The notes under the pieces were generated by a model. The model worked only from the letters and a program-made list of their open reading frames with translations, was not told the DNA's origin and ran no database searches. Shown piece after piece: positions 19,725 to 48,841 of a stretch of DNA of 64,000 bases. Position 1 is the first letter of the stretch. Each line of letters starts with the position of its first letter. A program made the position numbers and the translations under genes. The stretch comes from Salinivirgaceae bacterium (lineage in GTDB: Bacteria > Bacteroidota > Bacteroidia > Bacteroidales > SZUA-534). The stretch spans positions 52,406-116,405 of the forward strand of contig JAFYYA010000014.1 of NCBI GenBank assembly GCA_017557785.1, in the 5' to 3' direction.

Positions 19725-20096
19725 TTAATACGTTCTTACTTTCGGATAGTATGCATTCTCAATATGTTCCACTTCCACAACAGCCCCATTTTTGTGAAGC
19801 ACGGTTATCACATCAAGTCGGGCTTCCTCAGAACGGTTGAAGCGGCGCATATAACCATTGGCAGCATTAGCAATGAATTTCTGTTTTTGGTAGTTGACCG
19901 CTTCATGTGGCGACACAAGATAGTTGACTGCTCTTGTTTTTACTTCAACAAACGCAACAACGTCATCTTTAAGCGCAATAATATCCACTTCGAGATGGCC
20001 AGAACGATAGTTACGCTCTAATATTTTGTAACCCTTCCCGATTAAAAGATTTGCAGCAGCATCTTCTCCGAGTTTGCCGATTTCTTGGTTGGTCAT
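19725..20096 (-). CDS. yraN: YraN family protein (UPF0102), copy 1
   Basis: A 123-residue protein of the UPF0102/YraN family, which has a PD-(D/E)XK nuclease-like fold. The hallmark GHLEVDIIALKDD followed by FVEVKTR gives the Asp, Glu and Lys of that active-site pattern, and the N-terminus NQEIGKLGEDAAANLL is typical. Cellular function is not established; roles in DNA processing have been suggested. About 80% of residues match a second copy at 23688-24065 (hand count 97 of 122). The start overlaps the stop of the phosphonopyruvate decarboxylase by 4 bp, so it is coupled to the phosphonate genes although it has no known role in them. Downstream lies the ligase relic. Confidence 0.87.
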   Translation of the reverse strand: MTNQEIGKLGEDAAANLLIGKGYKILERNYRSGHLEVDIIALKDDVVAFVEVKTRAVNYLVSPHEAVNYQKQKFIANAANGYMRRFNRSEEARLDVITVLHKNGAVVEVEHIENAYYPKVRTY

Positions 20097-21214
20097 AATT
20101 CTGCAATATAATCCATAAACCCTCGCTTATTCTCCAACGCTGTCGTTGTCGGTCTGCCTAAATCCTCGCGGGCGCCAATTGAGCATTTCACTTCAATAAG
20201 AGTTAGTTCTTCGGCTTTTTTAGCGGATTGCAGTGCGTTGTCTAATGCTTCAAACGAAACAACCGAAGCAACATTCTTATAGCCACAAGCCTTTGCAATG
20301 GCAACCAAATCTATTTTGCCTGCTACCGTCGGTTGGCCACCGACAGTCTCGTGCGCCGAATTGTTGATGACTACATGAACAAGATTTTTAGGCGCATTGG
20401 CGCCAATTACAGCCATTGCCCCCATATGCATCAGAACGGCGCCATCGCCATCAATGCACCATATTTTTCTGTCGGGTTTATTGATTGCGACACCCAATGC
20501 AATAGACGAACTGTGCCCCATCGAGCCAACAGTCAGAAAGTCATATTTGTGACTTTGATGGTTGGCTTCACGGATTTCGAAAAGTTCTCGGCTTGCCTTA
20601 CCCGTTGTTGAGACTATCGGGTCTTCGCCAGATACACTCACAATATGGCGAATGATTTCCTCACGCAACATTGTGTTGTCGTTTTTATACTCGACCTTGC
20701 CGTCATAAGAAAGTCCGCCCTTGCGTACCACAAACGCAACATCCTTGCCTTGTGAGAGCAACGATTTGAAATCTACCATCGCTTTCTCGACTTCTTCATC
20801 CGTCGTCTCTTTACCAATAATGAACGACGATATTCCCATATCGTCAAGAAGTTTCACCGTGACTTCGCCTTGATAAATGTGTTGCGGCTCATCGTGAACA
20901 CCAGGCTCGCCACGCCACCCGATTACAAAAACCACAGGAATAGCATAAACCTTGTCGTTCAACAGCGAAGCGACGGGGTTAATGATATTTCCCTCGCCCG
21001 AATTTTGCATATATACAACGGGAACTTTGCCTGTTGCCAAATGATAACCCGCTGCCATAGCCGTACAGTTACCCTCGTTTGCCGCAATGATATGATGTTT
21101 AGGATCAATACCATACTTGTTCATCAAACAGTTGCACAATGCCTTCAACTGGCTGTCTGGCACACCCGTATAAAAATCGGCATCTATTATATTTAAAAGG
21201 CTCTCTACTTTCAT
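20093..21214 (-). CDS. aepY: Phosphonopyruvate decarboxylase
   Basis: A thiamine-diphosphate enzyme that decarboxylates phosphonopyruvate to phosphonoacetaldehyde, pulling the unfavourable PEP mutase equilibrium towards C-P bond formation. The 373 residues are normal for the family. The N-terminal cofactor glutamate is in AANEGNCTAMAAGY (Glu47), the family-typical GEGNIINP follows, and the Mg-TPP motif is IDGDGAVLMHMG (GDG at 256-258) through NN at 284-285 in VVINNSAHETVGG. The enzyme is well characterised in Bacteroides fragilis, where the gene is called aepY and serves capsule synthesis. Here it is third in the order mutase, reductase, decarboxylase, 11 bp after the reductase. Confidence 0.93.
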   Translation of the reverse strand: MKVESLLNIIDADFYTGVPDSQLKALCNCLMNKYGIDPKHHIIAANEGNCTAMAAGYHLATGKVPVVYMQNSGEGNIINPVASLLNDKVYAIPVVFVIGWRGEPGVHDEPQHIYQGEVTVKLLDDMGISSFIIGKETTDEEVEKAMVDFKSLLSQGKDVAFVVRKGGLSYDGKVEYKNDNTMLREEIIRHIVSVSGEDPIVSTTGKASRELFEIREANHQSHKYDFLTVGSMGHSSSIALGVAINKPDRKIWCIDGDGAVLMHMGAMAVIGANAPKNLVHVVINNSAHETVGGQPTVAGKIDLVAIAKACGYKNVASVVSFEALDNALQSAKKAEELTLIEVKCSIGAREDLGRPTTTALENKRGFMDYIAEL

Positions 21215-21225
21215 TTTAATTTTCT

Positions 21226-22341
21226 TTATCTCAATATTTTATGATATAACATATCAATAGTGTCCTCATCGAGCAATACTGGATTATTTTTCAATCTAGT
21301 CGGATTAACTGATTTTTTCAGCACATCAAAATCGCTTTCTGATTTGATTTCTGGCGCCTTCAACTCTAACAATTCAACTATATTCTTAAATTTAACAGCA
21401 GCATCTAATGGCGACTTCTCTCCCATTGCATCTGCAATTTCATCAAAAACAGTATCAAGATATTCCTTTCCCCGACTATCGATACATTTTTCGGTATTTT
21501 CAATCATATACGGCCATAACTCGCTGACACACATGGCTGCCGCGTGTCCGTGTGCGATTCCGTATAGCGATGTCAGTTTATAGCACATTGCGTGGCCTGC
21601 CGTTGTTTGCGTTATGTTTATGGCCTTTCCTGCAATGTTAGCAGCCATCAGCATATTCTTGTTGCCATCGTATTCGTTTTTCAAATACGAATCCATATTG
21701 CTGAGAATCTGCCTTATCGCATCTTTAGAATAAGTCTTGCTCTCATCAGTCGAATTGACCGACCAGAAGGACTCAACCGCATGACAAAAAGCATCAAGCA
21801 TCGTAACCTTACGCTGATAATCGGGCAACGTTTCGAGTACCGAAGGGTCGAACAAAACAGCCTGCGGAATGCAACTGTAATCCGCAATAGACTGCTTTGC
21901 GCCATTATAATAAATAACCGCAAAACGAGTTGCTTCACTGCCTGTCCCTGCAGTTGTTGGGATTGAAAAAAACGGGATATTGTTCGGCTCGATTTTCTGA
22001 TTGATGTAATCGCTACCCAATGGCATTGTCGCATATAGTTTTATGCACTTTGCCACATCCATTGCGCTTCCGCCGCCAACAGCAAGAATCGAATCGCATT
22101 CATTTTTCTTGAAAACCTCAACGCCTTTCACCACCGATTCATAATCGGGATTTGGCTGGTAATCAGAAAAGAATACGATTTCAATATTGTTCGCAGCAAA
22201 AAAATCTGTTATGTACTTTCCGACAGAGAGTTTCTTGAAAGACGAACCGCAGACAACAATGATTCGTTTTATGCCTCGGTCAATAATTTGTCTACCAAAT
22301 TCATCGTAACCCTTATCGGTAAAAATCGCTGTCTGTTTCAC
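21226..22341 (-). CDS. Iron-containing alcohol dehydrogenase, probable phosphonoacetaldehyde reductase
   Basis: A group III (Fe-type) dehydrogenase of 371 residues. The nucleotide motif GGGSAMDVAK is at 89-98 and the metal ligands are Asp183 and His187 (TMLDAFCHAVESF), His250 and His264 (TTAGHAMCYKL, YGIAHGHA). Placed between PEP mutase and phosphonopyruvate decarboxylase it most probably reduces phosphonoacetaldehyde to 2-hydroxyethylphosphonate, the role of PhpC-type enzymes in phosphinothricin and fosfomycin-type pathways. No aminoethylphosphonate transaminase is adjacent, so this branch replaces the aminoethylphosphonate branch. It starts with GTG, overlapping the mutase stop by one base (TAGTG). 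The substrate is inferred from context; the family alone would allow other alcohols. Confidence 0.85.
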   Translation of the reverse strand: MKQTAIFTDKGYDEFGRQIIDRGIKRIIVVCGSSFKKLSVGKYITDFFAANNIEIVFFSDYQPNPDYESVVKGVEVFKKNECDSILAVGGGSAMDVAKCIKLYATMPLGSDYINQKIEPNNIPFFSIPTTAGTGSEATRFAVIYYNGAKQSIADYSCIPQAVLFDPSVLETLPDYQRKVTMLDAFCHAVESFWSVNSTDESKTYSKDAIRQILSNMDSYLKNEYDGNKNMLMAANIAGKAINITQTTAGHAMCYKLTSLYGIAHGHAAAMCVSELWPYMIENTEKCIDSRGKEYLDTVFDEIADAMGEKSPLDAAVKFKNIVELLELKAPEIKSESDFDVLKKSVNPTRLKNNPVLLDEDTIDMLYHKILR

Positions 22342-23639
22342 TATTTTGTACCAGGAATAAGTTCAAGTATTTCTTTGACGCTCATACACATATCGTTTGC
22401 CTCAAGCGAACGGTGGTGAGTAAGAATTGATTTGGCCGTGTTCACCATTGCGGGATATGCAGAACGCAACATATGGTTTGCATAGATGACAACATTCACA
22501 CCCCAACTTGCAAGTTCCTCTTCGGTTACCTGATTGTAGGTTGTCGGCACCACTACAATCGGCACTGACGTGTGTTTTTGGCGGAACTTCTGGCAGAACT
22601 CTTTAATATCCTCACCAGATTTATTCTTGCTATGAATCATAATACCATCGGCACCAGCCTCAACATATGCAAAGCAACGTTCAAGAGCATCTTCAATCGA
22701 TTTACCAGCGATAAGGCTCTCGCATCGAGCGATAATCATAAAATCCTGCGCTATTTGCGCTCTTTTCCCTGCTCTGATTTTCTCCGAAAATCCTTCGATT
22801 GAATCTTGTGTTTGGATTGCATCGGTCCCGAACAGTGAGTTTTTCTTCAATCCAACCTTATCCTCAATAATAATGGCCGAAACACCCAGACGCTCCAACG
22901 TGCGAACTGTAAATACAAAATGCTCAATCTTACCACCTGTATCGCCATCAAAAATCACAGGTTTAGTTGTGCATTCAAGCGCATCGTTCAAACCGTGAAG
23001 TCTTGTTGTCAAATCGACGGCTTCAATGTCAGGCTTACCCTTGCTAGTAGAATCTGTCAACGAACTTGCCCACATTCCGTCAAACTCTTCGGTCTTGTTG
23101 TTGACCTTGACTTTAGTCTTCTCGATGATAAGTCCTGTCAATCCTGAATGACTTTCCATTATGCGTACAATCGGTTTTGCCGCAATTAGCCGTCTTAACA
23201 TTCTCTGACGGATTTCGGGCGTAGTGCCAATTTCACGGACTTCGGCATTTAGTGCTGTAGAAGAAATTCCTGGTGTATAAGGAATATCTACCACTTTACC
23301 GCCCCATTTGGCTATGCAGTCTATCACTCTTTGCCGTGTTTCCTGCTGAACACCAGTAAGCCAATCATCACCATGGACGACATAGTCAGGTTTAAGTTTT
23401 TCAAGATTAGGAACATAGTCCAATGTCGTCTGCGGAACAACTTGTGCAACACCTTTTATGTTTGCAACAATCTCCGCACGCTGTTCGTACGTTAAGTACG
23501 GAAGTCTTTTATAACTAGCGATGGCCTCATCTGTAAGCACACCAACGGTAACTTCTCCAAGTTTCATGGCCTCGTGAATGATATTCAAATGACCATGATG
23601 AATTAAATCGGCACTCATGCCGCAATAGACTGTTTTCAT
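22341..23639 (-). CDS. aepX: Bifunctional cytidylyltransferase-like / phosphoenolpyruvate phosphomutase fusion
   Basis: A two-domain protein of 432 residues. Residues 1-135 are a nucleotidyltransferase of the cytidylyltransferase superfamily: HHGH at 14-17 (HxGH motif) after [20 protein letters not shown] and the C-terminal ISST at 125-128. Residues about 155-432 are PEP mutase: [22 protein letters not shown] (230-236), and the diagnostic [10 protein letters not shown] (259-268), which separates PEP mutase from lyases of the same fold. The mutase makes phosphonopyruvate from PEP, the entry to almost all phosphonates. The transferase domain probably activates the final phosphonate as a CMP ester for transfer to glycan. 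Fusions of this kind are known in other bacteria; this substrate is inferred. Confidence 0.93.
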
Positions 23640-23687
23640 ATCTGTTAATATTTCAATTAATTCTTTATCAATTTGAACATATTGCCA

Positions 23688-24065
23688 TCAATGGTACGTT
23701 CTAACACTCGGATAGTAGGCATTCTCAATATGCTCAACCTCTACAACAGCACCATTTTTGTGCAAAACGGTTATCACATCGAGACGTGCATTCTCATTAC
23801 GTCGGAAATTACGGATATATCCATTGGCTGCGCTGATAATAAGATTCCGCTTGCGATAGTTGACCGCCTCTTGTGGCGATACCAAATAGTTGACAGAACG
23901 TGTTTTCACCTCAACAAATGCTATAGTATCACCTTTTAGTGCAACAATATCCAATTCAAGATGACCAATACGATAGTTCCGCGCCAAAATTGCATACCCT
24001 TTCTCAATCAAAAGATTGGCGGCTGCCTCCTCTCCGATTTTCCCTATTTCTTGATTGGTCGCCAT
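23688..24065 (-). CDS. yraN: YraN family protein (UPF0102), copy 2
   Basis: A 125-residue UPF0102 protein with the PD-(D/E)XK-like pattern GHLELDIVALKGD ... FVEVKTR and the conserved N-terminus NQEIGKIGEEAAANLL. It shares about 80% of residues with copy 1 at 19725-20096, and the ending VLHKNGAVVEVEHIENAYYP is identical in both. It lies 29 bp after the ligase-like gene and 48 bp before the mutase fusion. Most bacteria carry one yraN gene, in a housekeeping context; two copies bracketing the phosphonate genes suggest hitchhiking or duplication during exchange of the locus. Function in glycan synthesis is unlikely. Confidence 0.87.
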   Translation of the reverse strand: MATNQEIGKIGEEAAANLLIEKGYAILARNYRIGHLELDIVALKGDTIAFVEVKTRSVNYLVSPQEAVNYRKRNLIISAANGYIRNFRRNENARLDVITVLHKNGAVVEVEHIENAYYPSVRTYH

Positions 24066-24094
24066 TACTATGGTGTTTTTGTTTTATCAAATCG

Positions 24095-25978
24095 TCACAC
24101 ACTAACATTATTATTTCCAACGCTTTTGTTTTCATTATCATTCTTATACTCAACGAACGGCAAAAACGACAAAAATGCAAACAATGGGAAACTAAAATGG
24201 CTGCTACCACTGAACATACTGAAGAACATACAGCATAAATACATAATAAAGAAGATACCCAACTCCTTGCGCCGTTTCCAATATAGCCATAAACTCATTA
24301 TCAAAAATGCAATATAAACTACGCCACCTATAATTCCCGAATAAAGAAATGACGAGATAATTGGATTATGCGGGAAATCGTATCTTTTAGGATTGTTATA
24401 GAACTTTTCTCCATACCATTCCAAATACTTAAAGCCCTGACCGAAAATCTTTTGCTTTGTGTCGTAACGTGTTAGCCAAAGTTCTAAGGCGTAGCGCCAA
24501 CGAGCGATACGCGAGGATGTGAAATAGTTTATCGTGTCTCCACTAATATATGTAAAGAAACTATGAATAACACTATCAGACATTTGATCAGCATACATGG
24601 GAAGCCCTGTTGTATCATCACAAGTCAAACTAATATCCTTAACTTCAATTGTAGATCCAGCCTTGAGAGAACGGAGAAAGCAACGAGGGTTTAAATAGTC
24701 TCTTTTAAATTTATACGAAACATCACACCGTGTCCATACACTATCTAGCTCTGTTGTTTTCTGCGGAAGATGAAACATATAATCATTTTGACCTTCATAT
24801 ATCCCCCATCCCACATCAAATCGTTGTCCAACACCCTCCAATACCCTATATACAAATGACAAATCATAAGTAACGTCTTTGTGATAGAAGATAGGTCGAC
24901 CTGTATAAAGAATCTGCCATTCCCCATCAGAACACCATCTATTCACTCTTATAACATTTGAACCGTCGACATCTTTAACAAGATTAATGTTCAAGCAATC
25001 ATGCCAATCTGCAGTATACCCCCACCCTTCAAGACCATTCTGCAAATCACCGTTAGAAAACAAATTGTCTCCAATCTGAATTTGGTCATTGGGCTGGCAT
25101 TTCATATGTTGTCTAAAATCAAATTCTTGAAATGTAATTCCGCTATTACATATAGTATACAGCTTATAGTATTTATCTTTTGCCACCAGAGACAATCTGT
25201 CATAGTTCTTCCCGTAATACAACACCGCCACCACACAACCAATAGACATGAATAATAATGGTAATGTACTGCATAATAATAATTTTATTTCACTCCGGTG
25301 CTTTACTACAGCAACAATGCTTATCAATAAAAGAAGTAAAAAAAACAAGACGTACCCTCTCCTAGACATTGAAAGAGCAATATTTATCCCTGATATTAAA
25401 TCAACAATTAGAAAAAGAGCTACGCTTATGCGTTTATTCCCAACCAACCAAAATGATATCAAAGTTGCAAGAATAAAAAACATTGAATAGAAATTATTGT
25501 CATTAACCAAGGGGAAACGTCCCCCTTCAAAAACAAATCCTTCCATTGGAATGCGTATTCCTTTTTGAACCAATATTAACCTAACAATAGCTATAATACC
25601 CGCAAACAATGTCAGCCGTACAATCCATTTCAAGAAAACACCTAGTTTATCATCGCCATAATACAATTTCGAAAAAACAATAAAATACACTATCAAAGCA
25701 ATGTTTGCACTTTCTTTCACCACATTACTGAATGGTAAGAAATGAACGAAGAATAGCGCTATCACCAATATTGGCAGTAATAAAGTTTTGAATTTCGGTC
25801 TTGCAACACCTTGTTTGAATAACACATACACCGAATACAGAAAGCACGGAACAAATGTTGCAAAAAACAAATATTTGTATCCGATGAACACAGTACGGAC
25901 AAAAAATAATGCCAAACACAATGGCATTATTTTTTCGAATATACGCCGACTTTTTATATTATTCATTATTTGCATCAT
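24095..25978 (-). CDS. O-antigen ligase/polymerase-like membrane protein with an inserted carbohydrate-binding-like domain
   Basis: A 627-residue inner-membrane protein. About ten hydrophobic segments lie at 20-255, and two or three more at about 545-610. The Wzy_C/WaaL-type region is present: ARWRYALELW, KIFGQGFKYLEWYG and PHNPIISSFLYSGIIG with its conserved His. Such proteins transfer or polymerise lipid-linked glycans in the periplasm. Unusually, the large periplasmic loop contains an extra beta-rich domain at about 304-455 that opens NLFSNGDLQNGLEGW, the signature start of CBM4/9/22-type jelly-roll modules, and closes IEVKDISLTC in the same style. It probably holds the glycan substrate. 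The start could be any of three ATGs at 25978, 25975 or 25966. Its 3' end is duplicated as a relic at 19483-19662. Confidence 0.85.
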   Translation of the reverse strand: MMQIMNNIKSRRIFEKIMPLCLALFFVRTVFIGYKYLFFATFVPCFLYSVYVLFKQGVARPKFKTLLLPILVIALFFVHFLPFSNVVKESANIALIVYFIVFSKLYYGDDKLGVFLKWIVRLTLFAGIIAIVRLILVQKGIRIPMEGFVFEGGRFPLVNDNNFYSMFFILATLISFWLVGNKRISVALFLIVDLISGINIALSMSRRGYVLFFLLLLLISIVAVVKHRSEIKLLLCSTLPLLFMSIGCVVAVLYYGKNYDRLSLVAKDKYYKLYTICNSGITFQEFDFRQHMKCQPNDQIQIGDNLFSNGDLQNGLEGWGYTADWHDCLNINLVKDVDGSNVIRVNRWCSDGEWQILYTGRPIFYHKDVTYDLSFVYRVLEGVGQRFDVGWGIYEGQNDYMFHLPQKTTELDSVWTRCDVSYKFKRDYLNPRCFLRSLKAGSTIEVKDISLTCDDTTGLPMYADQMSDSVIHSFFTYISGDTINYFTSSRIARWRYALELWLTRYDTKQKIFGQGFKYLEWYGEKFYNNPKRYDFPHNPIISSFLYSGIIGGVVYIAFLIMSLWLYWKRRKELGIFFIMYLCCMFFSMFSGSSHFSFPLFAFLSFLPFVEYKNDNENKSVGNNNVSV

Positions 25979-26013
25979 ACCTTTATTTGCTCATTCACAA
26001 TTTTTGCAAATCG

Positions 26014-26601
26014 TTATCGGAAGATTTTTTCTATTGTCAAAAATATAATCTTGAAATATTCTTTAACAGATTTATTTTCAATATACTTCATATTGAGTTT
26101 AATCTTATCGGGCATAATCTGATTAATGTAAACATCATCAGGATTTTCCGCATTGCCGAGCAACTCGTTTTCATCAACATATTCTATCGATGCATAATCG
26201 GTTATGCCTGGCCGCACAGATAAAACCGCCTTCTGCTCATCAGTATATAAATCAACGTATTTTCGGACTTCCGGACGTGGCCCGACAAGGCTCATATCGC
26301 CTTTCATAACATTGAACAGTTGCGGCAATTCGTCGATTTTAAATTTTCTTATAAAATACCCGATTTTTGTAATTCGTGAGTCTCTACCGCCGACCGTTAT
26401 AAGACTTCCTTTATCCGCCCCAACACGCATTGACCGGAATTTGATGAGTTTAAAATCTATATTATTCAACCCAACACGCTGTTGACAATAAAAGCCACCA
26501 CCTCTACTTGTCAACACAATGATTGTCCAAACAATGATAAATAAAGGAGCCAGTAGCAAAAGACCGAAAAAAGAAAATACAATATCCAGAATTCGAATCA
26601 T
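26014..26601 (-). CDS. Initiating undecaprenyl-phosphate sugar-1-phosphate transferase (monotopic type)
   Basis: A 195-residue bacterial sugar transferase (PF02397 type). One N-terminal hydrophobic reentrant helix (SFFGLLLLAPLFIIVWTII) anchors the catalytic domain to the inner membrane. The catalytic motifs are QQRVG, KFRSM, the DE pair in KIDELPQLFNV and the signature MKGDMSLVGPRPE. It moves a sugar 1-phosphate from a nucleotide sugar to undecaprenyl phosphate and starts repeat-unit assembly. The short PglC-like form is typical of enzymes using N-acetylated diamino or amino sugars, consistent with the aminotransferase gene that ends where it starts (1-bp overlap). Confidence 0.93.
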   Translation of the reverse strand: MIRILDIVFSFFGLLLLAPLFIIVWTIIVLTSRGGGFYCQQRVGLNNIDFKLIKFRSMRVGADKGSLITVGGRDSRITKIGYFIRKFKIDELPQLFNVMKGDMSLVGPRPEVRKYVDLYTDEQKAVLSVRPGITDYASIEYVDENELLGNAENPDDVYINQIMPDKIKLNMKYIENKSVKEYFKIIFLTIEKIFR

Positions 26602-27794
26602 TACTCCAACAAATTGACAAATGAATCTATCACATAATCAACCATTTCATCCGTCAAGCACGTATGAAGCGGCAAGGTGATTTCATTTCTATATTGATTG
26701 AATGCATTAGGAAATTCTGCAATGTCATACCCTATTTGTTTATATGCGGTCATCATTGGCAAGGGTTTGTAATGAACATTGCAAGCGATATCCTTTTCGG
26801 CCATCTTCACAATAATATTGTTTCTGTAGTTTTCATCCCTGCCATTTAACCTTACCAAATACAGATGTCCACTTGACGAGTGCTTATCGGAATAGTGGTT
26901 TAGAACAGTAACATCCAAGCTGTTAAATGCTTTATTGTATTTCTCAATAATAGCCTTACGACGAGACAATATCTGCGGATATCTTTCCAATTGAACCAAG
27001 CCAACAGATGCCATAATATCAGTCATGTTACATTTATATGCAGGATATACTATATCGTATTCCCAAGCTCCAAGCTGGTTCTTCGCCAAAGCATCTTTGT
27101 TTTGCCCATGTAGAGAATAAAGCATGAATTCTTTGTACAACGCTTCATTGTCAATGCCATCAAAAGAACGCCATGTTAACGCTCCTCCCTCCGCTGTTGT
27201 TAGATTCTTAACTGCATGGAACGAGAACGATGTGAAATCTGCAATTTCGCCACACTTTTTGCCATTTCTCATCGCGCCAAAAGCATGGGCTGCATCAGCC
27301 AACACAATAACTCTTCCGAATGTTTCTTGGATTTTGTTTTTGGGGCGGAAAAATGTTGAGTTATTATTGACAATATCAAAAATTCTATCATAATCACAAA
27401 TAATACCTGCCAAATCAACAGGAATTATAACTTTTGTTTTTTCCGTAATGGCATCAGCCATTTTATCATAATCCATTTCAAAACCATCTTTAATGGTATC
27501 GACCATAACAGGCTTTGCCCCTACATGACACACCACACTTGCCGTTGCCGTATAGGTATATGCCGGAACTATGACTTCGTCTCCTTCTCCAACACCAAGT
27601 ATTCGCAACACACCTTCCAAACATGCAGTAGCGGAATTAAGGCAAACGGCTTTGGACGTGTGGCAATATGCCGCAATCTGTTTCTCAAACTCTTTGGTTT
27701 TAGGTCCCGTTGTAATCCAACCCGAACGCAAGGTTTCTGCAACTGCATTTATTTCCTGTTCGGTTATGTCAGGGGGTGAAAATGGAATTTTCAT
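26601..27794 (-). CDS. DegT/DnrJ/EryC1/StrS-family sugar aminotransferase
   Basis: A PLP-dependent enzyme of 397 residues that converts a keto-sugar nucleotide to an amino sugar. PFSPPDITEQEINAV opens the family fold, VLADAAHAFGAMRNG contains the Asp that binds the PLP nitrogen, and the Schiff-base lysine is in SFSFHAVKNLTTAEGG. The end (VNLLE) is normal. The gene shares one base with the initiating transferase, so its product is probably the sugar that enters first, for example an UDP-4-amino-sugar. No matching 4,6-dehydratase is in the window, so its keto-sugar must come from elsewhere. It is one of three DegT paralogues here. Confidence 0.9.
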   Translation of the reverse strand: MKIPFSPPDITEQEINAVAETLRSGWITTGPKTKEFEKQIAAYCHTSKAVCLNSATACLEGVLRILGVGEGDEVIVPAYTYTATASVVCHVGAKPVMVDTIKDGFEMDYDKMADAITEKTKVIIPVDLAGIICDYDRIFDIVNNNSTFFRPKNKIQETFGRVIVLADAAHAFGAMRNGKKCGEIADFTSFSFHAVKNLTTAEGGALTWRSFDGIDNEALYKEFMLYSLHGQNKDALAKNQLGAWEYDIVYPAYKCNMTDIMASVGLVQLERYPQILSRRKAIIEKYNKAFNSLDVTVLNHYSDKHSSSGHLYLVRLNGRDENYRNNIIVKMAEKDIACNVHYKPLPMMTAYKQIGYDIAEFPNAFNQYRNEITLPLHTCLTDEMVDYVIDSFVNLLE

Positions 27795-27818
27795 AGATAT
27801 ATCAAGTTTATTTAATCT

Positions 27819-28808
27819 TTATTTTCTTTTGTTTGAAAATGCAAAAAGGCCGAATAGCGTTCCCAAACCATAAGTAATATGTAACATGGGGAAAATGCCC
27901 AAAAGAATTATCATTCCCAAATTCTTATTTTTCGCAATTGATATCGCAGTGTTGAATAAATCAAATATTCCATATAAACAAACTAAAACAAACAATGGAA
28001 TATATGATATCCTTGATAAAGCAGAAAAAAGAATCAGTGATAATACAAAACACAATGGTGCAAAATGATATAAAGAAAAACACTTAGGACAAATCCACAT
28101 TGTTTTGCCAATCCAATAACCATTCAAATACTTTTGTTTCAACATTTTTAATAATGTGGGCCGCGCATACTGATATGAAACTATTGTAGGGTCATACCAT
28201 ATCTTAAAACCATTATGTCTAATACGCCAATGAATCTCGTTATCTTCTGTGCGACGAAGTTTTTCGTTAAACAATCCCACCTTTTCGAAAACTTCTTTTT
28301 TATAGGCTCCATGAAAAACCGATTTTACATAACGAGCCTTATCCGATGTGCGAAAAACAGCCAAACCACTACCAAACAAAGCGTTTTCTGCTTCCAAAAG
28401 AGTTTTAGCCCATGCTGTATTATCTTTCAATATTGTTGGGCGCTTCCCGCCTACAACATCAAAATAGCCTGTTTCTATAGTAGAAACTATTTTTCGCACA
28501 AAATCATTGGGGATTTGCGTATGAGCATCCAATCTTATAAGAGTATCACCTTCGGCATTATCTATAAAAACATTCCAACCATTAGCCTGCCATTGACCTG
28601 GATTTTCAAAAACACGAATATTATAAAACTGATTTAAATACTCATCTCTAAATGATTCCATAATTGATTTTGTTGAATCATCGGACATACTATCTATAAG
28701 AATTAAATCAATTTGTGATATTGGATATAATTGTTTCAATATATCATTCAATATTGCAGAAAGATATTTTTCTTCGTTAAGGGCTATTATGCCTAGAGAT
28801 ACTATCAT
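27819..28808 (-). CDS. Glycosyltransferase family 2 protein with C-terminal membrane segments
   Basis: The 329-residue protein has a GT-A fold: the N-terminal IIALNEEKYLSAILND, the acceptor segment LILIDSMSDDSTKSIM, and the metal-binding LIRLDAHTQIP (a DxH variant of the DxD motif). KLRRTEDNEIHWRIRHNGF matches the later ED motif. Two or three hydrophobic helices at about 250-320 hold it at the inner membrane. It closely resembles the group of succinoglycan ExoA-type transferases, which add single sugars to lipid carriers. It adds one sugar of the repeat unit; donor and linkage are unknown. It sits between the LicD and aminotransferase genes. Confidence 0.88.
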   Translation of the reverse strand: MIVSLGIIALNEEKYLSAILNDILKQLYPISQIDLILIDSMSDDSTKSIMESFRDEYLNQFYNIRVFENPGQWQANGWNVFIDNAEGDTLIRLDAHTQIPNDFVRKIVSTIETGYFDVVGGKRPTILKDNTAWAKTLLEAENALFGSGLAVFRTSDKARYVKSVFHGAYKKEVFEKVGLFNEKLRRTEDNEIHWRIRHNGFKIWYDPTIVSYQYARPTLLKMLKQKYLNGYWIGKTMWICPKCFSLYHFAPLCFVLSLILFSALSRISYIPLFVLVCLYGIFDLFNTAISIAKNKNLGMIILLGIFPMLHITYGLGTLFGLFAFSNKRK

Positions 28809-28843
28809 AGATAGTTTGTATAATAAGAACCAACTTGAAAAAA

Positions 28844-29704
28844 CTATACTAAATACGTCTCTCCTTTTTTTATCCGGTCTTTTACCTGTTCAATATTAAG
28901 GCGTTCCCTAAAATTAAGATAGTAACGGACGTCTGAATGGGCAGATTCTGTTATTTTTGGAGGAACCCGCCAATTTCCATATAACAATGATAAATATGCT
29001 TCATAATCTTTAGGAATCACAATTGTAGTGTCCTCAAAAGGCACTTCAATTGTTTCTTCAAACCATGAAGAATAAAAAACGCGACCTAAATACTCATATA
29101 AAGATACACATTTGCTACCTGAAGTAAAAATGTGTTGATTTTCGTACTGAATATACCTTTGCAATGTCTTTTCTGAATTCAAAGGCAAACAACCCAATAA
29201 GGTTCTAACGACTTGCCCCCTATGACCTTTTAAAATGTGTTTAAAGATATTAAATACACAATCTTTTGTAATGGTACTCTGATAAATTGAAAAAAGGAAT
29301 CTCCTTCTTTTTTGAATCGAAATTATTTTCTCATCACTACATTCAAATTTATCAAGAGGGAAAATATCAATATAATTTCCAATAATGAAAGGGATTTCTT
29401 TCCATTCCCAAATCGTTGTTTTCATATCGACAATTTTGGCAAACGGGAGATAATAATACTTATCTGTATATATTGAAAAGACATCTTTCCCGTCAGTCTG
29501 AACGGCTGATTTTAAACTAATAAGTTTGTTATAATCATCTCTAGGCATATAAATATCAATATCATCATCCCAAGGAATAAACCCCTTATGCCTAACAGCT
29601 CCCAATACCGTGCCACAACAAGCAACATACTTTAAATTATGCTCTTTCAAAAAAGAAACTGTATATTTAAATAAAGATAATAATTGAGATTGGATTTCTG
29701 TCAT
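28844..29704 (-). CDS. LicD-family phosphotransferase, candidate phosphonate transferase
   Basis: The 286-residue protein shows the LicD/FKTN nucleotidyltransferase-fold signature: CCGTVLGAVRHKGFIPWDDD at 29-48 with the DDDID metal residues at 46-50, and IDIYMPRDDY after it. LicD enzymes move phosphocholine from CDP-choline to teichoic acid or lipopolysaccharide. In this operon the available activated head group is probably a CMP-phosphonate made by the mutase fusion, so I infer transfer of hydroxyethylphosphonate to the glycan. No choline uptake, kinase or stand-alone licC gene is present. It lies between two glycosyltransferase genes (11 and 35 bp gaps). Substrate is inference only. Confidence 0.87.
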   Translation of the reverse strand: MTEIQSQLLSLFKYTVSFLKEHNLKYVACCGTVLGAVRHKGFIPWDDDIDIYMPRDDYNKLISLKSAVQTDGKDVFSIYTDKYYYLPFAKIVDMKTTIWEWKEIPFIIGNYIDIFPLDKFECSDEKIISIQKRRRFLFSIYQSTITKDCVFNIFKHILKGHRGQVVRTLLGCLPLNSEKTLQRYIQYENQHIFTSGSKCVSLYEYLGRVFYSSWFEETIEVPFEDTTIVIPKDYEAYLSLLYGNWRVPPKITESAHSDVRYYLNFRERLNIEQVKDRIKKGETYLV

Positions 29705-29715
29705 ATTCCCATCTT

Positions 29716-30720
29716 TTAATTAATCTCATTAAAATAACTATAATAAGTATTTTTGTATACATTTGAATACATAGAGAACGCTTTATCAACAGAAAAAACA
29801 TCCTTTATTCTGTTGATATCAACACTACTATTATTATTAATGGCTTCTTCTATTTTATTTACAAAATCATCTGGTCTTGCATAATCATATATAGTTACAC
29901 CAGATATGTTTTCTAAAAAATCTGCTATTCTTACCCGATTAGACATGAGCACTGGGGTTCCTCTCAAAAGACTTTCCAACGCCACATAAGAAAAACCTTC
30001 ATATCGAGATGGAATAACTGTCAATGACGCCTTTAAATAAAGTTCAGACAATTCATCTTCCGAAATTTGTGTTTTAAAAATAAAGTCTTCGCGTTCGGGT
30101 TTAATATTTGTTACGCACACAATCTCGAACTTGTCTTTTGGCAAAGAATACAGAACTTTAAGATTTTTATTGTCGTCATTCCTCCCCACAAACAAAATCA
30201 CAGATTTTTTACTCTTATCCTTCTCTGCAACAGCTTCATACTTTTTATCGAACCAATGTTGAATGGTGTAAACATTCTTGTTGTACTTGGTAAAAAAAAC
30301 ATAATCCTCCTTGTTTATTGATATAACCGCATTAGCTTTTTTCAGTATCGGCTTTACAAATATATGAAAAAAAGCACGAGCTAAAAGAGGACGGTTTACT
30401 GTATAAAACGGGTGTGCATGAGGTGTATAAACAATTGGCTTATTTATACCTAAAGACTTTAGCCCCCGACAAACGTAAAACGGAATCGTAGAGATAAATC
30501 CATTTATGTGGATAATATCAAAGTCAGCTGACAACAAAGATTTTTTTATTGCCTTCTCATCATAAATATGAAAGAATCGGCATCTTTTATGCGGCAAATC
30601 GGCAAACACAGACACTACGAAATCGCCTCTCGATTCCAACATATTCTTTAATGAATAACAATATCCTGTGATTCCACTTCGTGTTAATGTGGTATCTGCA
30701 AACAAGGCTATCTTTATCAT
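29716..30720 (-). CDS. Glycosyltransferase family 4 protein
   Basis: A GT-B glycosyltransferase of 334 residues. The N-terminal domain opens KIALFADTTLTRSGITGYCY and holds FDIIHINGF and YTPHAHPFY, patterns of family 4 acceptor domains. The C-terminal donor domain has ILFVGRNDDNKNL and the retaining-type EX7E region IPSRYEGFSYVALESLLRGTPVL. It is soluble, peripheral to the inner membrane, and adds one sugar of the repeat unit. Donor and acceptor cannot be told from the sequence. It follows the polymerase gene by 10 bp and precedes LicD by 11 bp. Confidence 0.88.
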   Translation of the reverse strand: MIKIALFADTTLTRSGITGYCYSLKNMLESRGDFVVSVFADLPHKRCRFFHIYDEKAIKKSLLSADFDIIHINGFISTIPFYVCRGLKSLGINKPIVYTPHAHPFYTVNRPLLARAFFHIFVKPILKKANAVISINKEDYVFFTKYNKNVYTIQHWFDKKYEAVAEKDKSKKSVILFVGRNDDNKNLKVLYSLPKDKFEIVCVTNIKPEREDFIFKTQISEDELSELYLKASLTVIPSRYEGFSYVALESLLRGTPVLMSNRVRIADFLENISGVTIYDYARPDDFVNKIEEAINNNSSVDINRIKDVFSVDKAFSMYSNVYKNTYYSYFNEIN

Positions 30721-30729
30721 ATTTATTTT

Positions 30730-31842
30730 TTACATGAAATGATACGGGAAAAACATTGTCCAATCTTGTCGAAATGTGTTTACTATTAGACAAAAAAGCA
30801 TTTGAACAAAAAAGCACACGTAGAATAGTATCTTTTTGGGTATATTTGCAAAAAGAGGAAACATAAATGGAACAAAATATCCACTCATTCTATCTGTTAA
30901 AGAAAAATGAATTGAACTTGCCATAAATACCAATCCACAACAATATACTTTAAACAAAAACGCTTGGTATCTATCATTTAAATTGATGCCATTATAAAGA
31001 GTAACTATAAACAATATATATATAAGGAATAAACATAAAGGTCCAATTTTTACACTATTAGCGCTAACATACATGCTATCTTTTTGTACCCAACCTGAAT
31101 ATTCATTGAAATAAGAAATATTATCAATTATCCATATAACGATTGTTGTACTAAACAACAATATGGTTACCACTATAGAAGCAAATATGATTATACTTTT
31201 CTTACTTATTTTAACATAATTCAGCAATGGCAAAACACAACATATCAAACTTGAATGATGGAATTGTGCGGCCAATAAAACCAACAAATAATACTCCAGG
31301 TATTTCTTTTTAAACAAATATTCATGTGAAAACAATATGATTGATATTGCAATATACTGTCTTTGCAAGTTTGTACTGCTAAAAAATGTGCCATATATCA
31401 CGAACAATATAATAGCTATAATAATATTTTTAGAAGATAATTGGGGGTATGATAGTTTTTGAGAAGTTCTAATGATGAAATACAATATTGACATATAAAT
31501 GAATATTCCTACCAAAAGCATAAACACTCTCGGATTCATTGTTAGCCGACTTACCACATAAATCAATAACAAATACCCATTTTCAAAATTAGGATGACTT
31601 GTCAATAAATAGTTTAATTTCCCAATTTGTAAAAAAGAACTAACATAAACCCGAGTATCATTTGAACAATATTGAAAATCCCGGAAAGTATAAAATACCA
31701 CAAAAAACACAAAGAACAACAAGAATATGTTATTTATGCGTCGTTTGTTATGTTTTACTGAATATTTCGCTTTAACAGAAAAGTATTTTTCTGCAAAAAG
31801 GCATAACGCAAAGAACAATATTAAAAATACAAATACATTCAT
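30730..31842 (-). CDS. EpsG-family membrane protein, probable repeat-unit polymerase (Wzy)
   Basis: A 370-residue inner-membrane protein with about ten hydrophobic helices. The arrangement of motifs resembles EpsG/Wzy proteins: FYTFRDFQYCSNDTRVYVS in the first periplasmic loop, ENGYLLLIYVVSRL, and the later YIAISIILFSHEYLFKKKY with FHHSSLICCVLPLL, where the His and Ser are family-typical. Such proteins polymerise lipid-linked repeat units. Together with the flippase and initiating transferase it makes this a Wzx/Wzy-dependent pathway. The DNA is among the most AT-rich of the window. A 145-bp gap without recognisable signal precedes it. Confidence 0.82.
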   Translation of the reverse strand: MNVFVFLILFFALCLFAEKYFSVKAKYSVKHNKRRINNIFLLFFVFFVVFYTFRDFQYCSNDTRVYVSSFLQIGKLNYLLTSHPNFENGYLLLIYVVSRLTMNPRVFMLLVGIFIYMSILYFIIRTSQKLSYPQLSSKNIIIAIILFVIYGTFFSSTNLQRQYIAISIILFSHEYLFKKKYLEYYLLVLLAAQFHHSSLICCVLPLLNYVKISKKSIIIFASIVVTILLFSTTIVIWIIDNISYFNEYSGWVQKDSMYVSANSVKIGPLCLFLIYILFIVTLYNGINLNDRYQAFLFKVYCCGLVFMASSIHFSLTDRMSGYFVPFMFPLFANIPKKILFYVCFFVQMLFCLIVNTFRQDWTMFFPYHFM

Positions 31843-31987
31843 TTTCAGTTATATTGTATTTATATTTGACTTCAATTCCTTCTATTCCTACGAAATTGAT
31901 CTAAATACATATATTCAGCAATATTCCAATTAGTCTCTCAAGATTAACTTTATTTGTTACCATTGTACACCAATAGGATACTCATAA

Positions 31988-33064
31988 TTAATTATTTGCA
32001 CATATCGTTTCATAAATCAATTGACATCTTTTTTCCCAAGTATTATCGCTCAAAAAACGCGTCCTTTTCGTTTCATCGTAACGCAACTTGTTATCTTGCA
32101 TCAATAATCGTATTTGTTGCACTAATTGTTGTCCTGATTTATAAAACAAACAAAAATCTTTATATCTATCCATTTCTGGATAATATGAAGAAATTATATT
32201 CTTATTAAAATTAATGTATTCGTATATTTTTATAGGATCCACAGATTCTATCAATCTGCTGATTTTAAACGGCATAATGAAACAATCAGAGTCCTCTACG
32301 ACTTCATAAAGTTTTGCGTGCGGAACAAAACCGACGACTTTGATTCTGTCGCATTCTGGTATTTTTATGCTCGCCTCAACGGAACCTACAAGTAAATATT
32401 CCAATTGTGGTATCTGTTCTAAACTTTCCAATATAGAATCAAAATCAAACCAACTGCCGATATGTCCAAAATATGATATTGTGAACGTTTTTTTGTTTTG
32501 TACGTTTTTATCCGTAAGGGTTAAAAGTTTGCCATTATATGCATTTCTATTCAAAACCAATTTTTGAGCATCGCATTTATACCGTTTTAATAATTCTTCT
32601 TGCAACTTAGCACTAGTAACAAATACAATATCCGATTTCGTTATTAATAGCTTTTCCGCTTCTAAAACTTCATTTCTCTCTTTATTATTCTGTCTAAATT
32701 CAATATGATTATCCATGCAATCATATATTATTTTCCCTTTATAATCTTCTGGGATAAATTTAATAGAAATCGGATGTGTAATCCATATATATTGTGGTTT
32801 TATTCGTTTTACTGCTGCCGATAATTTTATCTTTTTTATTGTTCTGTCAATCCACTTTATAATACGGAATTTATTTCGCTTTGGAATATCGTAAATTGCG
32901 ACAAGCTTATCAGTATTTGGAACTCTATTTTTCAAATATTGCATTGAACAAAAATGATAAACATAAACATCGAAATACTTTTCCAATCCTTCCGCTATAA
33001 ATTGGGGGCGTTGTTTCAAAAAATTCCAACCGACCTGGGATATGTATAGCATTTTATCTTTCAT
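31988..33064 (-). CDS. TuaH-like glycosyltransferase
   Basis: A 358-residue GT-B protein. It opens LYISQVGWNFLKQRPQFIAE and has the passage IIYDCMDNHIEFR found in teichuronic-acid TuaH-type transferases, then SDIVFVTSAKLQEELLKRY, a donor-domain SYFGHIGSWFDFDSI and the C-terminal IMPFKISRLIESVDPIKIYEY. No membrane segments. It should add one residue of the repeat unit. The start could also be the ATG four codons on. It follows wecB by 4 bp, so the two are probably translated together; that hints at use of UDP-ManNAc or a derivative as donor, without proof. Confidence 0.8.
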   Translation of the reverse strand: MKDKMLYISQVGWNFLKQRPQFIAEGLEKYFDVYVYHFCSMQYLKNRVPNTDKLVAIYDIPKRNKFRIIKWIDRTIKKIKLSAAVKRIKPQYIWITHPISIKFIPEDYKGKIIYDCMDNHIEFRQNNKERNEVLEAEKLLITKSDIVFVTSAKLQEELLKRYKCDAQKLVLNRNAYNGKLLTLTDKNVQNKKTFTISYFGHIGSWFDFDSILESLEQIPQLEYLLVGSVEASIKIPECDRIKVVGFVPHAKLYEVVEDSDCFIMPFKISRLIESVDPIKIYEYINFNKNIISSYYPEMDRYKDFCLFYKSGQQLVQQIRLLMQDNKLRYDETKRTRFLSDNTWEKRCQLIYETICANN

Positions 33065-33068
33065 CCAA

Positions 33069-34223
33069 CTACCTTTTTAACCATTCAACAATTCTTTGAC
33101 ACGCTTTTCCGTCACCGTATGGATTTACGGATTTGCTCATTTTTTCGTAGGCAGAAGAATTTTCCAACAATTCCGAAACGTTTTCAACAATAGCGTTATA
33201 ATTAGTTCCAACAATTTTTACCGTTCCTGAGGATACCGCTTCGGGTCTTTCTGTAGTATCTCGCATAACCAAAACCGGCTTGCCCAAGCCCGGTGCTTCT
33301 TCCTGAATGCCTCCGCTGTCCGTTAAAACAATATTTGATTTTTCCATCAAATACACAAAAGACAAATATTCCAATGGTTCAATGAAAAACATATTTTTAA
33401 GTCCACTCAAATCCTCACCGAAAACTTCATGGATAGGCTTTCTGACATTTGGGTTTAAATGCATCGGATACACAAAATCCACATCAGGGTATTTCTGAGT
33501 CAAATCTTTGATTGCTGTACACATATTTATAAAGCCGTCGCCAAAGTTTTCTCTGCGGTGTCCCGTTATGAGGACCAACTTTTTACCTCCTTTTAATCTG
33601 TCACAATCATAACCCGATTTTAGAAGTATATTTTCGAGTTCCGAAGAAACTTCTGCACTTTCTTTTATTTTGTTGACAACCAAATGTAAAGCATCAATAA
33701 CGGTGTTTCCCGTAACAAAAATGCTATTTTCATTGACGTTTTCTTTCAACAAGTTTTCTCTTGAAAGCAGTGTCGGGGCAAAATTGTATGTTGCAATTCT
33801 GCCAGTTATTTGACGGTTCAATTCTTCTGGCCAAGGCGAATAAATATTATGAGTTCTAAGACCGGCTTCAACGTGTCCGACAGGAATTTGCTGATAAAAA
33901 GCGGCAAGTGCGGCAGCTGTCGAAGTTGTCGTATCGCCGTGAACCAAAACAACATCGGGCTGAACTCGTTTCAAAACATCCCTCATACCGAGAAGCACTC
34001 TTGAAGTAACATCATACAAATCCTGACCTTGTTTCATAATGTTTAGGTCGTAATCAGGTTTAACTTCAAAAATGTTCAGTACTTGGTCAAGCATTTCGCG
34101 GTGTTGTCCCGTAACGCATACCATGGTTTCAAAATCTTTGGGAAATTTCATAAATTCCTTAACCAAAGGACACATTTTTATCGCTTCTGGGCGCGTGCCG
34201 AAGACAAGAAGAATTTTTTTCAT
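33069..34223 (-). CDS. wecB: UDP-N-acetylglucosamine 2-epimerase (non-hydrolysing)
   Basis: The enzyme interconverts UDP-GlcNAc and UDP-ManNAc in the cytosol. The 384 residues are normal for WecB/MnaA. Motifs in order are GTRPEAIKMCPLVKE, VHGDTTTSTAAALAAF, GHVEAGLRTHNIYSPWPEE with NR after it, TGHRRENFG and DSGGIQEEAPGLGKPVLVMR. Those cover the catalytic Asp/Glu/His set. No wecC-type dehydrogenase is in the window, so the glycan probably contains ManNAc itself or a sugar made from it. It overlaps the upstream WbsX gene by 4 bp (ATGA). Confidence 0.95.
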   Translation of the reverse strand: MKKILLVFGTRPEAIKMCPLVKEFMKFPKDFETMVCVTGQHREMLDQVLNIFEVKPDYDLNIMKQGQDLYDVTSRVLLGMRDVLKRVQPDVVLVHGDTTTSTAAALAAFYQQIPVGHVEAGLRTHNIYSPWPEELNRQITGRIATYNFAPTLLSRENLLKENVNENSIFVTGNTVIDALHLVVNKIKESAEVSSELENILLKSGYDCDRLKGGKKLVLITGHRRENFGDGFINMCTAIKDLTQKYPDVDFVYPMHLNPNVRKPIHEVFGEDLSGLKNMFFIEPLEYLSFVYLMEKSNIVLTDSGGIQEEAPGLGKPVLVMRDTTERPEAVSSGTVKIVGTNYNAIVENVSELLENSSAYEKMSKSVNPYGDGKACQRIVEWLKR

Positions 34224-35311
34224 TTATATTTTTGTATTTCTGCTTTTAACGTATCCAAATACTGTGTTCCATATTTTAAATCGGGCTCCATGTAATTCCC
34301 TTCGCCCCATTCATTCCAAGATTTCAAGAATGCCACATGTCTATTTTCTGACTTTTGCTGAATAACACTAAAAACATGTTGTAAATGTTGTCCAAACAAT
34401 TCAGGAGTTGAATTAGTTATTACATACCCACCCAGACCACTTCTTGGAGTATGATCCCAATTGGGTATTATTGTTGGGAAAATATTATCTAAATAATCAT
34501 CCGCAGAAATAAACGAAGGGAATATTTTATCATATTTCTTTATTATTGGCAATCTAAAAACTCGTCTATATAGTCCATACAGTTTCCTGCGCACATAACT
34601 TTTTTCCAAATAATTGTCATAATGTCTTACACTATTTATTGCATCAATTCCCGAATTTAAAATTTGTTCTTTTTCTTCTCTTGTTTTTATCGATTGAGCA
34701 ATAAAAAATATACCTGGCAAACCATTTTCAAGTGCCAACTTCTGCCACAAATCAATAAATCTATTCAAATCTGGTATTTGCAATGCTTTATAAATCATAA
34801 ATGCAGGCTTGCCATCGATTTTTATATACCTTTTGTCTTTTAATGCGGGCAAAATATCATAGAAATGAATTGTATAATCTTTTTCCCCTCCGTATGTCTG
34901 CACGGCCAAATCTTCTTTACTATATGTGCCATCCAAATTCCAGAATTTTTTTTGCCAAGTCTCATTTGCCCAACATAACATAAACGGGAAATCCGGATTG
35001 CCTGATTCCAAAACTTTTTGAAATGGCATTTCCAATTCCCTTTTGTTTGGTGCGAACCAATAATGATAATAACAAAAACCTTCTATTCCTGCATCCTTTG
35101 CTATTTCCGCTTGTTTAATTCGTATCTCTTCCAATCGCAAATCATAAAAACCTAATGTACTAGGAATATGGGGCTGCTCATGTCCTCGGAATAATTTCTT
35201 AGCCTTAGCCACATTTGTCCATTCTGTAAAACCTTCTCCATACCACTTATTGTTATCCTCTGTAGGATGAAACTGTGGCAAATAAAATGCTATTACTCTA
35301 GGTTTACTCAT
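34220..35311 (-). CDS. WbsX-family protein (GH99-like), copy A
   Basis: A 363-residue protein of the WbsX family, related to glycoside hydrolase family 99 and often found in O-antigen and capsule loci. The pattern is clear: AFYLPQFHPTEDNNKWYG, FTEWTNVAKA, GIEGFCYYHYWF, FPFMLCWANETW, and near the end SWNEWGEGNYMEPD. It has no signal peptide, so it acts in the cytosol where glycosyl transfer takes place. Members are annotated as glycosyltransferases or as hydrolases; the function is unsettled. A second WbsX gene lies directly upstream (88 bp), so the two probably act on related linkages. Confidence 0.87.
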   Translation of the reverse strand: MSKPRVIAFYLPQFHPTEDNNKWYGEGFTEWTNVAKAKKLFRGHEQPHIPSTLGFYDLRLEEIRIKQAEIAKDAGIEGFCYYHYWFAPNKRELEMPFQKVLESGNPDFPFMLCWANETWQKKFWNLDGTYSKEDLAVQTYGGEKDYTIHFYDILPALKDKRYIKIDGKPAFMIYKALQIPDLNRFIDLWQKLALENGLPGIFFIAQSIKTREEKEQILNSGIDAINSVRHYDNYLEKSYVRRKLYGLYRRVFRLPIIKKYDKIFPSFISADDYLDNIFPTIIPNWDHTPRSGLGGYVITNSTPELFGQHLQHVFSVIQQKSENRHVAFLKSWNEWGEGNYMEPDLKYGTQYLDTLKAEIQKYK

Positions 35312-35399
35312 ATTTAGCTTATTATCCTTACACGTTTTATATTATGGATCATTATTTGACCCAATACTTTCTTGGCTAAGTGTTAATTATATCTTATAA

Positions 35400-36482: not shown

Positions 36483-36487
36483 TTCTA

Positions 36488-37129: not shown

Positions 37130-37150
37130 AAGTAAACGATTGCCACTTTT

Positions 37151-39584: not shown

Positions 39585-39616
39585 TATTAAAATCAATAAA
39601 CTACTTACTATTCACT

Positions 39617-40279: not shown

Positions 40280-40331
40280 AACATATCTAATTTTATACCA
40301 TTTATAAACTTTCCGTTGATTCATCCAGAAA

Positions 40332-45167: not shown

Positions 45168-45184
45168 TTAAAAAAACTAAAAAA

Positions 45185-46165: not shown

Positions 46166-46196
46166 AAACAATTAATTGATATATCCATTGTGATTC

Positions 46197-46778: not shown

Positions 46779-46805
46779 TTCGCAAAAACTGCTGCATCTC
46801 CAATT

Positions 46806-48661: not shown

Positions 48662-48841
48662 ATCTACACAGCTTCGCCACTGTCGGGTGTGGCACAACTT
48701 CACGACCATACTAGCATATACTTGATGAAACCTTTGCAAATCAACAAAATAGATTCAACAAGCCGCCAATATGCCATTTTAAATTTATACAACGCAATAA
48801 TAGCACTAAATCGTGTTTTATGGAATTAATACTGGCACAAA

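Follow-up and report, generated by a model that had tools for sequence, protein, structure and literature searches.

A glycan gene array with a putative hydroxyethylphosphonate cassette at its 3' end in a Salinivirgaceae bacterium

Surface phosphonates are thought to be common in bacteria, and few of them have been worked out. The locus described here raises the question of whether three adjoining genes at the end of a long glycan gene array supply an activated phosphonate for decoration of the cell surface, and of which transferase would deliver it. The locus lies in a stretch of 64,000 nucleotides (hereafter the window; contig JAFYYA010000014.1, positions 52,406 to 116,405) from a Salinivirgaceae-type bacterium (Bacteroidota, order Bacteroidales). 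Its closest relatives were obtained from the stomachs of ruminants, and its assembly (GCA_017557785.1) comprises 3.0 Mb in 153 contigs. Our analysis indicates that the trio very probably encodes a route from phosphoenolpyruvate (PEP) to 2-hydroxyethylphosphonate (HEP) and on to its cytidine monophosphate (CMP) derivative, CMP-HEP. It probably serves as a HEP supply cassette, placed at the 3' end of a capsule or exopolysaccharide array and feeding surface decoration.

The trio and its fused cytidylyltransferase

The three genes are separated by -1 and 11 bp and are read in the following order:

22341-23639, minus strand: fused cytidylyltransferase-PEP mutase (PF01467, PF13714; TIGR02320 423 bits, cut-off 319.6)
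21226-22341, minus strand: iron-type alcohol dehydrogenase, proposed phosphonoacetaldehyde reductase (PF00465, E 2.6e-40; PF25137)
20093-21214, minus strand: phosphonopyruvate decarboxylase, a thiamine pyrophosphate (TPP) enzyme (TIGR03297 466 bits, cut-off 312.5)

The first protein consists of a cytidylyltransferase domain (about residues 1-138, with HHGH at 14-17 and the PF01467 match spanning residues 9-129) followed by a PEP mutase domain (about residues 146-432), which scores above the TIGR02320 cut-off and carries the EDKxxxxxNS motif of the mutases. The dehydrogenase gene begins with a GTG codon that overlaps the mutase stop codon, and its product belongs to the family expected of a phosphonoacetaldehyde reductase of the FomC/PhpC kind. 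We propose a mechanism whereby the mutase domain would convert PEP to phosphonopyruvate, the TPP enzyme would convert phosphonopyruvate to phosphonoacetaldehyde, the dehydrogenase would yield HEP from the aldehyde, and the N-terminal domain of the mutase protein, being of Fom1 type, would turn HEP into CMP-HEP. A transferase using cytidine diphosphate (CDP)-type donors, most likely the LicD protein of the same array, would then attach the HEP-phosphonyl group to a repeat-unit sugar, and the decorated unit would be flipped and polymerised. We infer all of these reactions, as well as the acceptor sugar and the part played by this particular LicD.

The best match of the cytidylyltransferase domain in the PDB is 5x3d (E 9.7e-59; 88 of 135 residues identical, 65%), whose table entry reads only phosphoenolpyruvate phosphomutase and which we take to be the cytidylyltransferase domain of Fom1. 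Both domains carry S9, H17 and Y43. A PF01467 domain with HxGH, fused N-terminally to a PEP mutase, is the arrangement of the Fom1 type, and the N-terminal domain of the window protein looks like the Fom1 HEP cytidylyltransferase, a likeness absent from the first-pass annotation of this DNA. With the fosfomycin pathway of Streptomyces wedmorensis (Fom1/FomC/Fom2) the window thus shares the fusion, the domain identity and the three residues, as well as an iron-type dehydrogenase and a decarboxylase, which in that pathway are presumably FomC and Fom2. It differs in that its trio lies in a glycan array, that no Fom3, Fom4 or FomD was seen among the array genes, and that related cassettes often have a CDP-dependent transferase directly downstream. 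A tree of the cytidylyltransferase domain did not fix the position of Fom1 within the family. The cytidylyltransferase of Fom1 makes CMP-HEP, according to Rice et al. 2019 (PMC6697681).

The first-pass annotation had listed a PEP mutase, a decarboxylase, an iron-type reductase, a nucleotidyltransferase domain and a LicD protein, and all five were recovered at the place and on the strand that it gave, the nucleotidyltransferase domain being part of the mutase protein rather than a separate gene. Its claim that HEP is made and CMP-activated gains good sequence support from two curated models, from the likeness to 5x3d and from the pairing of pocket and reductase described below.

Branch enzymes and the cytidylyltransferase pocket

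We surveyed fused mutases in named genomes, in relatives and in genomes sampled evenly across the phylum and across the order, which together gave 117 rows. The named-genome set leans to the reductase type because its 80 loci are the most window-like of 569. The 117 rows reduced to 108 distinct ones by their last 250 residues and to 107 with a cytidylyltransferase domain; the row lost in the last step was the second mutase of a same-genus relative (G005), whose full copy (L109; motif HPGIIN, DUF6564 neighbour) had been removed as a duplicate of the shorter L021. An iron-type dehydrogenase lies near 86 of the 107, including L042, which was put in this group by hand (dehydrogenase upstream, contig ending early downstream). 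Sixteen have an aminotransferase, PF12804 or DUF6564 gene instead, a group labelled AEPT/PntC of which not all members are proven 2-aminoethylphosphonate (AEP) loci; one is of another kind (L112), and four are undecided, their contigs ending within about 1.5 kb (L039, the second mutase of L061, L077 and L174).

The HxGH motif is kept in all 86 reductase loci (that of L179 entered by hand), and its second histidine is lost in 12 of the 16 loci of the aminotransferase group. In an alignment of the domain, from which the triple fusion L179 was left out, S9-H17-Y43 occurs in 84 of 85 reductase rows versus 0 of 16 others; the exception, L057, is a protein that starts after residue 9 at a contig edge. 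H17 and Y43 alone are found in 85/85 and 1/16 rows, respectively.

Several observations weigh against this pairing and the HEP assignment built on it. The HxGH motif is intact in four of the 16 aminotransferase-type loci, all of one clade (L139-L142), and HxGH alone as a marker of HEP is ruled out by this clade, where it stands together with an aminotransferase. All 17 distinct viral mutases have H17 and Y43, with S at residue 9 in 5, C in 10 and A in 2, so that S9 is weakened as part of a universal marker by the 12 that carry C or A. Changes have been few, two in motif and four in branch enzyme on the mutase-domain tree, and the rows that have lost the motif group together as a single set on the cytidylyltransferase tree (in which the viral group included one window copy and the first mutase of L061 was left out). 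That same mutase, L061_a, is reductase-linked and lacks the EDK motif. Finally, the window dehydrogenase reaches 135 bits against the 424 required by TIGR03405, the model of the phosphonate iron-type dehydrogenase PsrA, which we take to describe a catabolic enzyme. The evolutionary switches are too few to allow a formal test, and the coupling of pocket and branch enzyme is a consistent pattern short of a tested law.

Some loci depart from the common plan. L061 and L109/L021 each hold a reductase-type and a degenerate-type fused mutase within one locus, which suggests that two phosphonates may be made from one gene array. In L179 (9876-11885), an NTP-transferase-like domain, a cytidylyltransferase and a mutase form one triple fusion, followed by a decarboxylase, a reductase and a LicD gene. 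Two same-genus relatives have a 104-aa protein of unrecognised kind between mutase and reductase (L104:13124-13438 and L027:11566-11880); a Pfam scan of the L104 copy found no match, and L027 is a sheep-abomasum metagenome-assembled genome (MAG) labelled Salinivirgaceae.

The candidate transferase, the glycan array and the proposed destination of the phosphonate

The first-pass annotation had proposed a search of genome neighbourhoods for the mutase fusion, the reductase and LicD. Directly 3' of the trio, 33 of the 86 reductase loci have a LicD gene, 21 a PF04464-like gene and 22 another gene; in 5 more the neighbour is read from the opposite strand, and in the last 5 the contig ends there. 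A LicD or PF04464-like gene therefore directly follows 54 of the 86, and the two families account for 12 of 588 other same-strand genes in these loci, a background taken from an earlier labelling in which the decarboxylase model had drifted onto iron-type dehydrogenases through an L067 open reading frame (ORF) spanning both. The 3' count itself was made with separate decarboxylase and dehydrogenase labels. Labels of the next gene agreed with Pfam in 10 of 10 sampled cases, three of the five LicD proteins giving only a short N-terminal match of 31-32 bits, and the next gene of L059 is PF04464 by Pfam and was missed by the custom model. The counts are not independent, since the loci are related to one another. 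A CDP-dependent transferase, LicD or CDP-glycerol-transferase-like, is strongly linked to HEP cassettes in general.

A further gene found in such loci, not seen in the window, encodes a YidC/60KD_IMP-Sulfatase fusion, perhaps a membrane phosphonotransferase. It occurs in 16 of the 86 reductase-type loci, of which 15 contain PF04464-like genes as well, and is absent from all 16 aminotransferase/PF12804-type loci; examples are L113:15071-18472, L061:4502-7333 and L176:13697-16735, with domains scanned in L113 and L061 and the others recognised by similarity.

The LicD gene of the window lies upstream of the trio on the same strand:

28844-29704, minus strand: LicD-family phosphotransferase, candidate CMP-HEP:glycan transferase (PF04991 145 bits, cut-off 22.6)

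The protein has GTVLGAVRHKGFIPWDDDID and shows the DDDID stretch of the LicD family, and its sole match among PDB sequences at E ≤ 1 is Fukutin-related protein (E 3.7e-4). The case for and against its being the HEP transferase is about evenly balanced. Among the four same-genus trios compared, three have a LicD gene on the same contig and strand: that of the window's own genome (G000), that of G009, about 26 kb upstream of the trio, and that of G005, where three LicD genes lie beside the second mutase.

Other findings tell against the window LicD in this role. There are five genes between it and the mutase, so that it lacks the adjacency by which a CMP-HEP:glycan transferase would be recognised, and the same trio in a sister species (G002) has no LicD gene on its contig. 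A tree that included 28 LicD proteins collected by similarity to the window LicD, regardless of mutase proximity, gave mixed neighbours: the smallest well-supported set (SH-aLRT 97) joins the window LicD with three proteins of HEP loci and three that belong to G773, G762 and G433, genomes outside the 18 of the order draw in which a mutase was found. This placement does not single out one donor for the window LicD. A clade of LicD proteins from HEP loci only had been seen in a first tree and was broken by adding these 28. Moreover, the same genome holds, at C52:60000-64500 (L132), two LicD genes around a fusion of PF12804 with a class I-II aminotransferase, together with an octopine-dehydrogenase-like gene, perhaps a second CDP-type decoration locus; with its LicD genes and NTP-transferase fusion, this locus implies that other CDP donors may exist.

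These findings bear on a possible but rather unlikely alternative, in which CMP-HEP is made for the surface, the transferase is encoded elsewhere, and the window LicD transfers some other group, taken from a CDP donor that a locus such as C52 would make. The LicD-free contig of the sister species, the mixed tree neighbours, the two further LicD genes of C52 and a PF04464 gene at C96 of the same genome speak for it; LicD on the contig and strand of three of the four same-genus trios, and the frequent adjacency of HEP cassettes to LicD or PF04464, speak against it. As to the earlier claim of transfer by LicD, the cassette type has a strong link to CDP-dependent transferases; for the window LicD itself the claim is only plausible, given its distance from the trio, the contig without LicD in one of the four same-genus loci and its mixed company in the tree.

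The trio belongs to a glycan gene array of about 29 kb, comprising 28 genes that all lie on the minus strand between 48739 and 19725, no two of them more than 145 bp apart. A gap of 452 bp follows the last gene, and the spacing suggests that the array would form a single transcript. In addition to the trio and LicD, the array contains:

48164-48739, minus strand: first array gene, NusG-family protein (PF02357 46 bits), candidate antiterminator that we presume to be UpxY-like
29716-48071, minus strand: rest of the glycan array, with glycosyltransferases, EpsG, UDP-GlcNAc 2-epimerase, two WbsX proteins, a flippase, hexapeptide and acyl transferases, an ATP-grasp protein, two DegT aminotransferases and two proteins without a Pfam match
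27819-28808, minus strand: family 2 glycosyltransferase (PF00535)
26601-27794, minus strand: DegT-family sugar aminotransferase (PF01041; PseC model 301 bits, under its cut-off of 423.5)
26014-26601, minus strand: initiating sugar-phosphate transferase, Bac_transf (PF02397)
24095-25978, minus strand: polytopic protein of 627 aa, no Pfam or NCBIfam match
23688-24065, minus strand: YraN/UPF0102 paralogue upstream of the trio (PF02021)
19725-20096, minus strand: YraN/UPF0102 paralogue downstream of the trio (PF02021), overlapping the decarboxylase stop by 4 bases

We counted this context in favour of surface decoration, as the trio genes overlap or abut and share an array with a flippase and glycosyltransferases; a surface glycan is the likely target of HEP. 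It is improbable that the phosphonate instead enters a lipid or a diffusible, fosfomycin-like molecule and that the company of the operon is chance. The trio enzymes are presumably of the kind that precedes Fom3, FomD and Fom4, and in the L139-L142 clade a fused mutase with an aminotransferase lies near what reads from its sequence as a CDP-alcohol phosphatidyltransferase. On the other side, CDP-dependent transferases recur beside such cassettes, and no methyltransferase- or epoxidase-like family was found among the 28 array genes, three of them without a Pfam match and with Fom3, Fom4 and methylphosphonate synthase not searched genome-wide. That the product is AEP as in Bacteroides fragilis polysaccharide B, with an array aminotransferase acting and the dehydrogenase serving another purpose, is highly improbable, for even though the B. 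fragilis fused mutase (S82) is 70% identical and stands with a class V aminotransferase, and one of the three DegT proteins of the array (38448-39596) also matches PF00266 weakly (31.7 bits versus 292 for DegT), class V aminotransferase is the best match of none of the 28 array genes, all three candidates are DegT by best match, and the window cytidylyltransferase has the residues of the reductase-linked kind, unlike those of the B. fragilis kind.

The remaining features concern the immediate surroundings of the trio. The polytopic protein at 24095-25978, which has an apparent large soluble insert, is perhaps an O-antigen polymerase or ligase as read from its sequence, and five same-genus relatives have counterparts (54-63% identical) at the same end of the capsule locus. 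The two YraN/UPF0102 copies are 79% identical to each other; the upstream copy shares 97% DNA identity with that of G009, versus 82-86% for the trio genes, and YraN is missing beside the trio of G005 and present only downstream in G002. The G+C content of the trio genes is 0.41-0.46 versus 0.28-0.41 for most glycan genes upstream. Scans of the window found no tRNA and nothing over the Rfam gathering scores, and scans for promoters and terminators yielded hits in roughly the number seen with shuffled sequence.

Distribution, precedents and implications

Of 393 genomes drawn evenly from the order, 18, the window's own among them, carry a fused mutase at E ≤ 1e-60: 16 with a reductase, one with an aminotransferase (G007) and one on a contig that ends early (G569). 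A similar draw of 395 genomes of the phylum gave seven matches (own included), three with a reductase and four with an aminotransferase. On the mutase-domain tree, the window falls in a subclade of 11 rows (support 99) with members from Salinivirgaceae, Paludibacteraceae, Treponema and further spirochaetes, as well as a MAG that bears the label Fibrobacter succinogenes. Mutase identity to the window is 94-95% for two Treponema and the Fibrobacter-labelled MAG and 92% for a Paludibacteraceae MAG, with reductases 56-63% identical and third codon positions of the mutase gene 41-51% identical. Such third positions, despite the protein identity, rule out a very recent transfer of the trio across phyla; near-identical proteins with third positions of this kind point to strong constraint and old or repeated transfer. 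Related cassettes are present in the named strains Treponema berlinense ATCC BAA-909, Arenibacter hampyeongensis JCM 17788 and Alteromonas lipotrueae MD_652.

A scan of IMG/VR contigs, whose sample source is not shown, gave 26 viral loci, 21 of them with a fused mutase (17 distinct). An iron-type dehydrogenase lies near 19 of the 21 (15 of the 17 distinct), in most cases preceded by a decarboxylase that is divided between two ORFs. The viral cassette loci (L211-L231, L233 and L234) lie on contigs of up to 189 kb; by custom-model labels, L233 has a stand-alone cytidylyltransferase followed by LicD, and L234 a cytidylyltransferase, a reductase and a LicD-like gene, with no mutase in the stretch examined. 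PHROG matches identified a dUTPase and a Holliday junction resolvase on the L214 contig, and most other viral neighbours scanned had no PHROG match. Searches of a phage collection and of plasmids gave 2 and 102 records, one of the latter covering at least 80% of the query. Li and Horsman are said to have noted virus-encoded phosphonate in 2022, and reportedly counted HEP as a common branch already.

Among known glycan systems, polysaccharide B of B. fragilis is likewise a capsule with a phosphonate, and a related fused mutase occurs in strain S82; there the phosphonate is AEP, an aminotransferase takes the place of the reductase, and the cytidylyltransferase motif reads HPGL, the second histidine being lost. 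Yu and colleagues reportedly described HEP phosphonoglycans of Glycomyces and Stackebrandtia in 2014; these resemble our proposal in having HEP on a polysaccharide and belong to another phylum. The Pnt pathway, as described by Rice et al. 2019 (PMC6697681), resembles the window in that a phosphonate is CMP-activated by a nucleotidyltransferase either encoded near the mutase or fused to it, that LicD-like genes lie in the vicinity and that the target is the surface, and differs in that the enzymes assayed were of the PF12804 (LicC-like) kind acting on AEP, as against PF01467, a reductase in place of the aminotransferase and proposed HEP in the window. None of the 28 array genes matches PF12804, the family of PntC, at E ≤ 0.001. 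That paper also reports a fusion to PF01467 for 23.6% of 1485 PEP mutases, and LicD-like or glycosyltransferase genes in the neighbourhoods examined in three oral anaerobes; the logic of fusion, activation and an accompanying LicD is therefore already in print. The literature searched, with most subscription papers outside its reach, held no worked-out HEP-glycan route in Bacteroidota. The chemistry is of a known kind and the setting is new. As far as could be seen, three things are new: a HEP variant of Fom1 type, present in 16 of the 393 genomes drawn from the order; the residue pattern of the pocket; and the occurrence of the cassette on contigs of viruses.

We offer only as a tentative and rather doubtful speculation that a Fom1-type fusion, a decarboxylase, a reductase and a LicD or CDP-glycerol-type transferase may together form a portable HEP surface module across Bacteroidota, Spirochaetota, Fibrobacterota, Pseudomonadota and viruses. 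In such a model, the pocket (H17 and Y43, plus S9 in the bacterial proteins) would predict HEP, its loss would mark a switch to other phosphonates served by separate enzymes, and the odd, transient cytidylylation of HEP in fosfomycin synthesis would be left over from a surface module of this sort.

For each reaction that would lead from PEP to activated HEP in gut Bacteroidota, the cassette provides a candidate, and the S9-H17-Y43 pattern may sort HEP loci from those of other phosphonates. The cassette also hints at why HEP is cytidylylated by producers of fosfomycin, and the named strains with related cassettes offer carriers in which these proposals can be tested.

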